Shown here in pieces: positions 2,981 to 61,131 of a stretch of DNA of 64,000 nucleotides (position 1 is its first letter; every line of letters starts with the position of its first letter). The stretch is from positions 1 to 64,000 of the forward strand of contig NZ_RHOK01000004.1 of the NCBI RefSeq assembly GCF_003946175.1, given 5' to 3'. Below the pieces are notes generated by a model. The model was not told the DNA's origin and did not search any database. It saw only the letters and a list, made by a program, of their open reading frames with translations. The stretch comes from Lacticaseibacillus suibinensis. Its GTDB lineage: Bacteria; Bacillota; Bacilli; Lactobacillales; Lactobacillaceae. The translations under genes and the position numbers were made by a program.

Positions 2981-3271
2981 CGAGGCTACTCGTCGGAATA
3001 AGCCCGCCGACCTCCGCAGCCTAGTTGCGCTGCGTGAGGCCAACGCCGGCGTGATTAGCTACGCCTCAAGCATCGCCATCAAAAAACGATGGCAATACTT
3101 GAGGCTAGGCTACTCATCCGGCTAAGTGCAGCCTCACTACACAGCCGAGTTGCGCTCCGGTCAACAACGTCCGAGCGATTAGCTACGCCTGAAGCCTCGC
3201 CAGCAAAAAACGCTGGCAATGCTTCAGGCTAGGCTACTCGTCGGACTAAGCCCGCCGGCCTCCGCAGCCTG
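2981..3271 (+). repeat. palindromic GCTACGC/GCTAGGC elements, two copies plus half copy
   Basis: Copy one (3023-3146) has GCTACGC at 3058-3064 and GCTAGGC at 3104-3110 around the nested stems CCTCAAG/CTTGAGG and GCCATC/GATGGC. Copy two (3148-3271) has the boxes at 3182-3188 and 3228-3234 around CCTGAAGC/GCTTCAGG and GCCAGC/GCTGGC. Both loops are A-rich. Bases 2981-3022 look like the right half of a third copy. The two full copies form a head-to-tail tandem. Confidence 0.75.
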
Positions 3272-11920: not shown

Positions 11921-13494
11921 TGGCAGACCAGCCTGAGCCTCATACCAAACGACGGCTGCCCCTTGCATTCAAGTGGACAGCCGTTGTTGCAGTGGGCATC
12001 TTTTTCACGTTTATTGTTTTTTCGGTGATGCTGGTCACCCTGATGCGTCAGATTTTGATCAATCAGGAGCAAGGCACCATCAAGGAGACGATTAGTGCCG
12101 TCGAGTTGCGGCTAGCCCCAGTCACGACAAACTTGACCCATGAAACGGTGCTCCCACGGATCGAATCAAGCAGTCAAACCCGTTTGCCAGATGGCTCCAT
12201 CACCGGGCAAGCACAGGGAAGTGTGTTTGACGATTCCGTGATTCAAAAAGTGTCACGCGATGATATGTCGCTCGCGATTTATGATCGCGATGGCCACAAA
12301 ATTTTCACCTCGCGGGAAAGTGACGAACCGCTGACCAAAGTGAAACATACCACCATCAAAATGGTGGATAACGGCCGCTTCCGGGGGATGTTGGCCCGGG
12401 CGCCGATTGTGTCCAGCGAAAATGGTAAAATGATTGGCTATCTGCAAGTGACCGACCACATGACGGCGTTTTATGCCACCATGAAGCAGATTTGGGAAAT
12501 TATCGCCGCCTTGGCGGTCGTCGCGCTTCTGGTGTCCACCTTGGTCGGATTCTTCTTGGCCCGGCGGTTCTTGAAACCGATTAAGCTGATTACCAACACC
12601 ATCGACGAGGTCAATGACGAGCCGCAAAGCAGTGTGCGGATTCCGCCGCTGCAACGCAATGACGAGTTGTCGGACCTGGTGGATGAATTTAACGGCATGC
12701 TGGATCGCATTCAGCGGTTCATTGATCAGCAAGGCGAATTCGTGCAGGATGTGTCGCATGAGCTGCGCACCCCGGTGGCCGTGCTGGAAGGGCACTTGCA
12801 GCTGCTGAACCGTTGGGGGAAAGACGATCCTGAAGTACTCGATGAATCGTTGACCGCGTCGCTGCAAGAAGTGAAGCGGATGAAGAGTCTGATTCAAGAA
12901 ATGCTGGAGCTGACCCGTGCGGACCAAGTGGATGTTCAGTTCCCCAATGCAACGGCGGATCTCAATCAAACCGTTGAGCAGGTGGTCAATGATTTTCGCA
13001 TGATTCATCCCGACTTTGTGTTCACCTTAGACAACGATTTGCCAGGGGAAGTGTACGTCCGGATGTATCGCAACCACTTGGAGCAGATCTTGATCATCTT
13101 GCTGGATAACGGGGTCAAGTACTCCCGTGACCGCAAGGAGCTGCATGTTTCGGCGGCACTGGATAGTGACGGCGTGGCCCTGGCGGTACAGGACTTTGGC
13201 GAAGGGATTACCCCGAAGGATCGCGAACGCGTCTTCAACCGCTTCTACCGGGTGGATAAGGCTCGCAGCCGCGAAAAAGGCGGTAACGGATTAGGCCTGT
13301 CGATTGCCCAGCAACTGATTGAAAGCTATCACGGGTCGATTTCAGTCGATTCCGTGGTGGGGTCCGGTTCGGTGTTCCGCATTCAGCTGCCGACCATCAC
13401 GTATGACGAAGTATTGACTCTGCGCGCCGCCGAAGAAGCCAAGCAGAAAGAGGCTGAAGGCCCCGCTACTGATCAAATCAAAAGTAATTTATAA
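11920..13494 (+). CDS. sensor histidine kinase (ArlS/LisK-like)
   Basis: A 524-residue membrane kinase. A first membrane segment at about residues 17-40, an extracytoplasmic sensor of about 150 residues and a second segment (IWEIIAALAVVALLVSTLVG) precede a HAMP domain. The phospho-acceptor His is in DVSHELRTPVAVLEGH (about residue 280). The ATPase domain has the N box DNGVKY, DFGEGI and GNGLGLSIAQQ. It is the partner of the regulator encoded just upstream. The signal sensed is unknown. Confidence 0.95.
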   Translation: MADQPEPHTKRRLPLAFKWTAVVAVGIFFTFIVFSVMLVTLMRQILINQEQGTIKETISAVELRLAPVTTNLTHETVLPRIESSSQTRLPDGSITGQAQGSVFDDSVIQKVSRDDMSLAIYDRDGHKIFTSRESDEPLTKVKHTTIKMVDNGRFRGMLARAPIVSSENGKMIGYLQVTDHMTAFYATMKQIWEIIAALAVVALLVSTLVGFFLARRFLKPIKLITNTIDEVNDEPQSSVRIPPLQRNDELSDLVDEFNGMLDRIQRFIDQQGEFVQDVSHELRTPVAVLEGHLQLLNRWGKDDPEVLDESLTASLQEVKRMKSLIQEMLELTRADQVDVQFPNATADLNQTVEQVVNDFRMIHPDFVFTLDNDLPGEVYVRMYRNHLEQILIILLDNGVKYSRDRKELHVSAALDSDGVALAVQDFGEGITPKDRERVFNRFYRVDKARSREKGGNGLGLSIAQQLIESYHGSISVDSVVGSGSVFRIQLPTITYDEVLTLRAAEEAKQKEAEGPATDQIKSNL

Positions 13495-19446: not shown

Positions 19447-19449
19447 GAG

Positions 19450-19690
19450 ACTGCGAAGACCGCCGCACTTAGCCGGATGGGTTGCCTAGCATCAGGCATT
19501 GGCGCAGGGTTTTGCGCCGAGGCCTGATGCGTAGCAAACCACTCCGGCGTTGGCCGCCTGGAGCGTAACTCTGCTGAAATAGTGGTGATATTAGCCATTG
19601 CCGCTGGTTTTGGCGCCGAGGTCTGATGCGTAACGAACCACTCCGGCGTTGGCCACTCGGGAGCGAAACTTGCTGAAATCGTGGTGATCA
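19450..19690 (-). repeat. palindromic element (minus copy) plus partial duplicate
   Basis: The full copy (19450-19570) reads on the minus strand, with GCTACGC as GCGTAGC at 19529-19535 and GCTAGGC as GCCTAGC at 19484-19490. Stems are ATCAGGC/GCCTGAT and GGCGCA/TGCGCC. A second, decayed copy follows: AACCACTCCGGCGTTGGCC recurs 100 bp later (19537 and 19637), and a GCTGAAATnGTGGTGAT block occurs at about 19573 and 19672, so about 100 bp was duplicated in tandem. The gap holds no gene. Confidence 0.72.
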
Positions 19691-44998: not shown

Positions 44999-45072
44999 TG
45001 CGATAGCCGAGATTCGAACTCGGGACCGATGGTTTAGAAGACCATTGCTCTATCCAACTGAGCTACTATCGC
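44999..45072 (-). tRNA. tRNA-Arg (anticodon UCU)
   Basis: On the minus strand the acceptor arms GCGATAG and CTATCGC pair, the D arm has AGCTCAGTTGG, the T arm has GGTTCGAATC-type sequence (GAGTTCGAATCTC), and the anticodon stem ATGGT/ACCAT encloses CTTCTAA with anticodon TCT. It reads AGA codons. CCA is not encoded. A strong promoter lies just upstream. Confidence 0.96.
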
Positions 45073-48077: not shown

Positions 48078-48176
48078 GTTGTATTTGTCACCCCTCAACT
48101 GCAACCGCACAACGTCAGGTTTTCAAGCGTAGCACCTGACTTGGCGAGTACTCAGGGGAAAAAGCCTACGGGCAAC
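48078..48176 (+). ncRNA. ribosomal protein L21 leader
   Basis: A structured 5' leader in the place and form of the Firmicutes L21 leader. CCCCT (48091-48095) pairs with AGGGG (48154-48158), enclosing GTCAGGT (48114-48120) with ACCTGAC (48134-48140). It ends at the rplU ribosome-binding site and probably mediates feedback by L21. The fold is visible; the regulation is inferred from the family. Confidence 0.85.
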
Positions 48177-50322: not shown

Positions 50323-50342
50323 GAGAAAAGTGGCTTGGTATC

Positions 50343-50530
50343 AGGCTGCGGAAGGTGGCCGCTCTTAGCCCAACGAATAGCCTAGCTCAAGGCATTGCCG
50401 GCGCACTTTGCCGGTGAGGCCTTGAGCGTAGCTATTCGCTTGGGCGTTGGCCACCTGGAGCGCAACTACAAATGGGGCGCTAAGCTCGCCGTCCTTCGCA
50501 GCCTGTAGTTGCGGCCCGCTCCGCAGCCTT
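50343..50530 (-). repeat. palindromic element (minus copy) plus partial right end
   Basis: The full copy (50343-50469) reads on the minus strand: GCCTAGC 50380-50386 and GCGTAGC 50426-50432 are its boxes, with stems TCAAGGC/GCCTTGA and GCCGG/CCGGC. Its outer arms also pair (GGTGGCC with GGCCACC). A partial plus-oriented right end follows to 50530, and GCAACTACA (50462-50470) is inverted at 50504-50512. The gap 50323-50556 holds nothing else. Confidence 0.72.
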
Positions 50531-58568: not shown

Positions 58569-58740
58569 GGGCTGTAACCAATGTCACAGCCCCTAGATTC
58601 ACTCCGAATGTTTCAGCAGAGTTACGTGCCAAAAGGCCGGAGCCGAGTAGCTAGCTACGCTATCCACCGAGTCCAAAGTTCGGACTTGGTGGATAGCTAG
58701 GCTACCTGTCGGCTCCAAAACCGCCTTTTGTCACAGCCCC
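58569..58740 (+). repeat. palindromic element flanked by a 12-bp direct repeat
   Basis: The element core (58621-58735) has GCTACGC at 58654-58660 and GCTAGGC at 58696-58702 around TATCCACC/GGTGGATA and AGTCC/GGACT; the outer GGAGCCGA and TCGGCTCC also pair. TGTCACAGCCCC occurs at 58582-58593 and again at 58729-58740, flanking it. The first repeat is the right arm of a hairpin, GGGCTGT 58569-58575 with ACAGCCC 58586-58592. Confidence 0.7.
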
Positions 58741-60834: not shown

Positions 60835-61131
60835 TAGTTAGGCTACTCGTCGTGCTAAAACCGCTGGTCTTCGCAGCGTGATAGGTGCGCTCAGACCAGC
60901 AACGCGTGAGCGACTAGCTACGCTTAAGCCCTCGCCGGCACGACCGGCCGGCAATGGCTTAAGCTAGGCTACTCGTCCCGCTAAAACCGCTGGTCTTCGC
61001 AGCGTATAGGTGCGCTCCGCCTGGCAAAGCCGACGAAACTAGCTACGCGCTGAAACCGACCGCAAAAACCAGCGGTCAATTCCAGCGCTAGGCTAGTTTG
61101 TCGGCAAAAATCGCCAGCCTTCGCAGCGTGA
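60835..61131 (+). repeat. palindromic elements, two copies plus right-half remnant
   Basis: A right-half remnant (60835-60880) is followed by two tandem copies. The first (60881-61005) has GCTACGC 60917-60923 and GCTAGGC 60963-60969 around TTAAGCC/GGCTTAA and GCCGGC/GCCGGC. The second (61007-61131) has the boxes at 61042-61048 and 61087-61093 around GCTGAAA/TTCCAGC (one mismatch) and GACCGC/GCGGTC. Their right ends share ACCGCTGGTCTTCGCAGCGT or a close variant. The gap 60808-61141 holds no gene. Confidence 0.76.

Follow-up and report, generated by a model that had tools for sequence, protein, structure and literature searches.

RAYT-associated GTAG REP/BIME sequences, as described in PMC3733652, are intergenic palindromic clusters near gene 3′ ends and stop codons that use alternative complementary stem letters and are held to be mobile single-strand hairpins. 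The repeats reported here resemble them in these respects. However, the REPs are 20–40 bp long with one stem of 5–13 bp, whereas the lactobacillus units are about 125 bp long with four stacked stems and fixed internal loops. Integron attC sites, according to PMC2727003, are 57–142 nt long, palindromic and poorly conserved in sequence, with extrahelical bases, an unpaired spacer and a variable tip, and one of their strands is recombined; the lactobacillus units resemble them in length, sequence variability and fold. The enterobacterial repeat RU-1 (127 bp), compared here by its description in PMC2759123, is similar in length, intergenic and MITE-like. It differs from the lactobacillus units in belonging to other bacteria. 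RU-1 is presumably linked to ERIC, and we know of no stem covariation in enterobacterial RU-1/ERIC-like repeats. The repetitive hairpin elements of organelle genomes, also compared by description, are likewise dispersed, single or double and taken as mobile, but are mitochondrial and of another shape (PMC2800124). A survey of stem-loop families gives three initial clusters in Lactobacillus johnsonii (PMC2267715).

The repeats were found in a window of 64,000 nucleotides of the Lacticaseibacillus suibinensis genome. A sequence-only reading of this window had noted seven copies of a palindromic element whose stems covary while two short boxes stay fixed. R1, a covariance model built from these seven window copies, placed all of them at the noted positions with offsets of a few bases only, and the noted layout and P3 pairs were also correct. 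The repeats and the sequences next to them are as follows.

2981–3020, + strand: relic to the left of the first pair, corresponding to the right half of another unit (recognised by sequence)
3021–3148, + strand: unit 1 of the first tandem pair, R1 117.2 bits, folded, boxes GCTACGC...GCTAGGC at 3058–3110
3146–3271, + strand: unit 2 of the first tandem pair, R1 127.5 bits, core 3182–3234
19447–19572, − strand: single unit, R1 114.3 bits, core 19484–19535
50342–50469, − strand: single unit between pepP-like and efp-like genes, R1 134.5 bits, core 50380–50432
58569–58593, no strand assigned: small hairpin GGGCTGTAAC...GTCACAGCCC, left of the subfamily B unit (recognised by sequence)
58618–58740, + strand: subfamily B unit, R1 82.7 bits, core 58654–58702, element absent at this site in the sister species L. 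suilingensis
60881–61006, + strand: unit 1 of the second pair, upstream of a coaBC-like gene, R1 120.3 bits, core 60917–60969
61006–61130, + strand: unit 2 of the second pair, with the noted P3 mismatch in its core, R1 111.7 bits, core 61042–61093

Scanning the window with R1 revealed no further place beyond the seven copies, except reverse-strand echoes of them. The only Rfam matches in the window were a tRNA (44999–45072) and an L21 leader (48093–48162), both ordinary. No Rfam family matched any copy at the gathering score (best E 0.66 on a locus with five units), and no description of the family was found among the top-ranked matches in open-licence PMC texts, the scope of the literature search as distinct from subscription papers. 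The sequence-only reading likewise named no described family of this form in lactobacilli. Left of the first pair lies a second long palindromic repeat, GGGCTCAGTGGTGAAATTGTTCTTAGCC ... CTGGCCACCACGTTCCAGCCC (about 2803–2975), parts of which adjoin other copies, for example at L123 and in stretches L230 and L247 of genome G015, which is taken to be L. suilingensis. In L. zeae, the intergenic region upstream of coaBC that holds the 60881 pair in the window instead contains another palindrome, about 75 nt long and with outer arms that pair (L194, about 12124–12238); its R1 score is only 22 bits.

The covariation seen by eye was confirmed on the seven copies, in which both sides had changed in 26 of 44 pairs (shuffled mean 12.4); none of 500 shuffles reached the observed value on any of five measures. 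It also holds on an alignment of 105 copies, made with MAFFT without structural guidance and almost gapless over 128 columns. These copies are a subset of 142, 131 of which were 120–129 nt long; from these, members of subfamily B, copies that were odd or truncated, and tandem duplicates that were nearly identical had been removed by hand. The fold is one rod consisting of a short end helix, P1 (columns 14–21 with 111–117), P2 (25–40 with 88–102, with a bulged G at 31), P3 (43–51 with 77–85), P4 (55–60 with 68–73) and a loop. Stem cells were paired in 94.5% of 3979 cases, compared with 72.8% for shuffled partners, and pairing fell to 19–42% when the partners were slid by one to three columns. 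Double-changed stem cells numbered 890, compared with 249 in shuffles, and columns 17 and 114 made near-equal use of the Watson-Crick pairs (AU 28, GC 26, CG 23, UA 20). A strict parser retained 94 of 142 units in the L. suibinensis genome (G000) and 66 of 131 in G015; these 160 units had 106 different P3 left arms, and 139 of them kept at least seven of eight P3 pairs, wobble counted. The letters of the TAC/TAG loop were unchanged in 101 of the 105 copies and the bulged G in 102, and the CTC/AAT loop was less strict (exact form in 59). Since the stems covary while the mismatch loop and the bulged G stay fixed, pairing is preserved only at positions left free by the fixed loops. The boxes had been described as fixed, which is true of the loop letters, but their outer halves can co-vary across the genus (at L065, TAGGTACGC with GCTAGCCTA), and a few distant copies, including L054 and L056, have other boxes.

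In a structured RNA, G.U cells are expected to outnumber A.C cells. In an SRP RNA control (29 of 30 loci used, 26 distinct rows), there were 94 G.U and 6 A.C cells when all pairs were counted, and 34 and 4, respectively, among the variable pairs. The elements, read on the top strand, showed 35 G.U and 112 A.C cells over 32 stem pairs, and 32 and 80, respectively, over the variable RNAalifold pairs. All RNAalifold pairs together gave 143 G.U and 86 A.C, with one fixed T.G box pair supplying 103 of the 143. By helix, the ratio of G.T to A.C on the top strand was 16:17 in P1, 12:17 in P2, 9:54 in P3 and 5:26 in P4. An A.C on the top strand is a G.T on the bottom strand. Therefore, a structured RNA of the top strand is disfavoured and a bottom-strand fold favoured; the counts suggest, without proof, that it is the bottom strand that folds. 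Unpaired conserved columns lean in the same direction (G>A 33/472, C>T 31/1207), and the strand signal of the A.C excess may thus be mutational, reflecting strand-biased mutation. The sequence-only reading is partly supported: the structure-dependent covariation holds, a top-strand RNA is disfavoured, and conversion between arms, its other proposal, is still a candidate and is retained as a rival explanation below.

By ORF guesses (the longest ORFs, some of them overlapping), the units are intergenic, clustered and near stop codons. Where an array end faced the 3′ end of a gene, the distance to the stop codon was at most 10 nt for 23 of 41 right ends and for 1 of 51 left ends; the corresponding counts in G015, which are not independent of those in L. 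suibinensis, were 24 of 43 and 0 of 48. The 23 abutted stops comprised 15 TAA, 8 TAG and no TGA (16, 7 and 1 in G015), and ORFs over 150 aa at the same loci ended in TAA 315, TAG 101 and TGA 116 times. Between co-directional genes, 54 copies lay in the orientation of the genes and 36 in the opposite one, showing no strong bias. In a crude scan, terminators adjoined the left end in 15 of 95 cases and the right end equally often, in 15 of 95 (background, 37 of 400 random 150-base windows). Therefore, there is no asymmetry, and terminator targeting was rejected as an explanation. A conserved pepP-efp insertion site across species was also rejected, as the copies of other species lie upstream of pepP.

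The polarity toward convergent stops, seen in both genomes though not independently, and the preference for bottom-strand G.T in P3 and P4 are what one would expect if the reverse complement formed the 3′ UTR in transcripts of the convergent gene whose stop codon abuts the right end, with the hairpin stabilising or ending the mRNA. However, 54 of the 90 copies between co-directional genes would then be transcribed as the top strand, the wobble bias is absent in P1 and P2, and the unpaired columns lean the same way as the stems. Moreover, resident stems break at a fair rate (see below) and no Rfam family matches. We regard such a bottom-strand RNA as an unlikely explanation of the family.

The family is widespread and apparently undescribed. 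The L. suibinensis genome contains at least 142 copies (R1; 150 of 1424 candidates scored) in 88 clusters, 34 of which hold two to five units, mostly in common orientation and abutting with a period of about 125–127 bp. At least 131 copies were found in G015 (150 of 1500 candidates scored). A search of the genus with R1 gave matches in at least 18 of 30 genomes, and at least 19 of 60 genomes matched, L. suibinensis itself included, when one genome of another genus is counted; 58 candidates were scored per genome in this search, and its copy and genome counts are lower bounds. In a wider draw of Lactobacillaceae (E 1e-6 or better; 13 candidates scored per genome), R1 matched at least 42 of 251 genomes and at least 11 of 40 genera. 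The family is thus present in Lacticaseibacillus, where it had been noted, but is not confined to it. Twenty stretches from other genera yielded 31 R1 matches, two of them reverse-strand echoes, and many of these matches had a TAGCTACG...CTAGGCTA core with differing ends.

Carriage by viruses was considered and rejected: 50 viral contigs matched the exact box pattern, and in none of them were at least six of the eight bases beside the boxes complementary, a result that also serves as a control for chance pairing. Window units had no match against plasmids or phages (one query each), and units from other genera had none against phages. One other-genus unit matched 6 of 72,556 plasmid records, all from Ligilactobacillus salivarius, at 92–93%; two further ones matched no plasmid. 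The plasmid copies are embedded in about 400 bp of a Lactiplantibacillus-type repeat at 80% and so show transfer of a longer segment. The mobilizable plasmid pSF118-44 of L. salivarius UCC118 carries a unit (L355:3001-3122) that is 92.6% similar to one from Lactiplantibacillus and is flanked by genes for an oxidoreductase and a recombinase-family protein.

L. suilingensis is a sister species of L. suibinensis, with 99% identity in RecN. Both flanks of 59 of the 88 clusters were present in the G015 stretches fetched (median flank identity 94.3%), and the length of the array between the flanks agreed within 1 nt at only three of these 59 shared sites. Among 63 parsed units at 34 shared sites, 24 had a counterpart at 0.85 or more, 36 were below 0.70 and three lay between; with random partners, 54 of the 63 were below 0.70 and one reached 0.85. 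More than half of the units (36 of 63) are therefore unrelated at shared sites, indicating replacement of units and not gradual change. Most of the difference between the sister species arises in this way, by exchange of entire units or modules, which the sequence-only reading had not foreseen. Of the 24 matched units, 20 entered the orthologue counts. Over their 838 pairs, we observed 29 single breaks, six compensated and three uncompensated double changes, seven changes to G.U and four changes from wobble to Watson-Crick; changed sites amounted to 58 of 1678 among paired positions and 56 of 793 among unpaired ones. Two differences separate the window unit at 50342 from its L. suilingensis orthologue: a compensated C-G to T-A exchange in P2 and a change in the loop. 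Selection at each site thus seems mild in resident copies though the family keeps its fold, a combination that would be expected if the fold matters at copying.

Units also appear to be modular. Of 93 unit pairs with a common inner hairpin, 32 had the same P1 and 25 a different one. At L088, the neighbours at 2257 and 2382 share an identical inner hairpin of 41 nt, and their P1 and P2 differ on both arms. Across loci, the identities of P1, P2 and the inner module are almost uncorrelated (−0.003 to 0.139). In both sister species, some units are interrupted at different points by a nested hairpin of about 50 bp, TTGATCAG...GCGCGTAC...GACATGCG...AGAAA, which is perhaps a small element of its own; the window unit at 3146–3271 is present in the sister species with such an insertion. 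Examples are the following.

L070:2001-2175, L125:2001-2174 and L138:6846-7020: nested insertion of about 50 bp
L116:2001-2168, L110:2001-2170 and L212 in G015: nested insertion of about 50 bp

In genome G285, which by its RecN would belong to Lactiplantibacillus, the genus containing L. modestisalitolerans, a repeat of about 400 bp occurs at 20 loci (L376-L395). In the 8 long repeats fetched, the 125-bp hairpin forms the centre; in the 12 short ones, an unrelated hairpin of about 38 nt takes its place. Both groups had been chosen by match pattern and not at random.

The copy at 58618, in which the sequence-only reading had missed CTC/AAT, is a member of subfamily B, which is distinct from the main subfamily and far more uniform. 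Subfamily B has 10 copies in G000, and 16 matches were found in the G015 stretches. Identities were compared for seven of the 10 copies, those with nested insertions being left out; four were 95–99% identical at loci with unlike flanks, and the three others were 76–91% identical. Near-identical copies at unrelated loci, a MITE-like feature, are thus seen for subfamily B but not for the main subfamily, in which none of the 160 parsed units had a copy at 0.95 or more elsewhere in its own genome and seven had one at 0.9 or more. Small hairpins like that at 58569–58593, whose right arm repeats the right end of the 58618 unit, adjoin most subfamily B copies. The 58618 site measures about 172 nt here and holds a 28-nt hairpin in L. 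suilingensis, so the change is a replacement and no clean insertion. The 28-nt hairpin may be the terminator of the convergent gene, a T run following it on the other strand. No clean gain of a main-subfamily unit was seen, and the two shorter single-copy sites inspected (L113:2001 and L123) keep relics. As for target duplications, the spacers between units were slightly more similar to the right flank than expected by chance: at least three letters were shared in 14 of 61 spacers, where 500 shuffles gave a mean of 5.5 and a maximum of 14.

An alternative is that nothing moves at present: old arrays would lose, duplicate and recombine units, and template switching from arm to arm would alone match the stems, with no protein reading the fold. 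Template switching is described as perfecting imperfect palindromes in Escherichia coli (PMC7202029). The disagreement of array lengths at nearly all shared sites, the scarcity of recent copies elsewhere in the genome and the six compensated double changes in orthologues are also consistent with this alternative. Template switching should, however, pair the TAC/TAG and CTC/AAT loops too, and TAC/TAG is nearly invariant. Furthermore, the spread of the same core over at least 11 genera and the dispersal of subfamily B would be left unexplained. We therefore consider the absence of mobility improbable.

Candidate partner enzymes were sought in known systems. The Y1 transposase (PF01797) was absent from six element-rich genomes (G001, G006, G007, G011, G014 and G024) and gave only two partial matches in the L. 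suibinensis genome. Y1 transposase and elements co-occur in some genomes (e.g. G017, G020 and G021), and Y1 matches without an R1 match were found in G010, G012, G028 and G029. The Y1 distribution thus shows no association with the elements, and an IS200/REP partner was rejected. The integron integrase (TIGR02249) did not score above its cut-off in any of 31 genomes, all of which had weaker tyrosine-recombinase matches, and was likewise rejected as the partner. The units also differ from attC sites in abutting without gene cassettes, and their ends lack the AAC/GTT boundary pair that PMC2727003 places in the R boxes. The consensus ends of the units are AGTTGCGC and GCAGCCT, and the letter before TAG varies; hence the units depart from the REP definition (20–40 bp, one stem, terminal GTAG or CGTC). 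The element may nevertheless share with attC sites and REPs a mode of action in which the fold is what is read, although defining features of both proved to be lacking.

The intergenic clustering, the palindromic form, the contact with stop codons, the TAG at the left end and the two partial Y1 matches would fit a REP-like element of unusual size, mobilised by a RAYT-like transposase of the IS200/IS605 type that is now mostly lost, and GTAG REPs also supply stop codons to neighbouring ORFs (PMC3733652). However, the units are much longer than REPs, with several stacked stems, and Y1 and the elements are found without each other in the genomes listed above. In addition, the main text of PMC3733652 does not mention Firmicutes or lactobacilli. 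An origin of this kind seems very unlikely.

Our preferred explanation, to which we assign a probability of about 0.45, is that the family is a non-autonomous mobile DNA hairpin whose fold is needed for propagation and whose resident copies are decaying. One of the two strands, perhaps the one complementary to the strand shown here, would fold into a rod in which stacked stems alternate with fixed unpaired features (the TAC/TAG loop, the CTC/AAT loop, the bulged G and the CAAC/CTAA junction), and a postulated enzyme would read these features. If copying or exchange of a unit requires folding, propagation would be limited to units whose arms match, and selection would act then and not on resident copies, which would decay slowly. 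The same requirement would let stem letters drift freely provided that the arms pair, perhaps aided by template switching between arms. Units would accumulate in intergenic arrays, many of them immediately following the stop codon of a gene that converges on the array, and these arrays would gain, lose and swap units and hairpin modules. The data establish the family, its fold and covariation, unit replacement, the spread of one subfamily and the polarity of position, whereas the folded strand, the enzyme, the copying step and the selection at propagation are what we infer in this scheme.

In favour of a mobile hairpin we count the covariation in the 105 copies with its nearly unchanging mismatch loop and bulged G, the 29 breaks against six compensations in orthologues while standing copies are 94.5% paired, the 36 of 63 unrelated units and the inner hairpins that carry different outer stems in 25 of 93 pairs. 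The dispersal of subfamily B together with one site lacking it in the sister species, the patchy range and the lack of strong orientation bias point in the same direction. Against it, no clean gain was seen in the main subfamily, none of the 160 parsed units has a copy at 0.95 or more elsewhere in its genome, and the Y1 and integron integrase searches yielded no partner enzyme. Moreover, the spacers give no more than a hint of target duplication, mutation may account for the strand signal and the plasmid copies lie within a longer repeat.

A bolder and doubtful version of the mobile hairpin is a new kind of recombination site, in which a folded strand marked by the TAC/TAG loop would be inserted or swapped as a hairpin cassette by a postulated structure-reading enzyme. 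Hairpins would then be exchanged for hairpins, and stem sequence would stay free. Such exchange would fit three observations: inner hairpins can be identical although their outer stems differ, the sister species has a 28-nt hairpin where L. suibinensis has a whole unit, and the 400-bp Lactiplantibacillus repeat occurs with either of two central hairpins.

If the mobile-hairpin explanation is right, Lactobacillaceae would harbour a repeat family that keeps its shape while its sequence is nearly free and that turns over its units within a single species split. A covariance model finds these repeats where plain sequence comparison finds little. The family would offer a natural experiment on the recognition of DNA by fold and not by letters, and would point to an undiscovered enzyme in food and gut bacteria.
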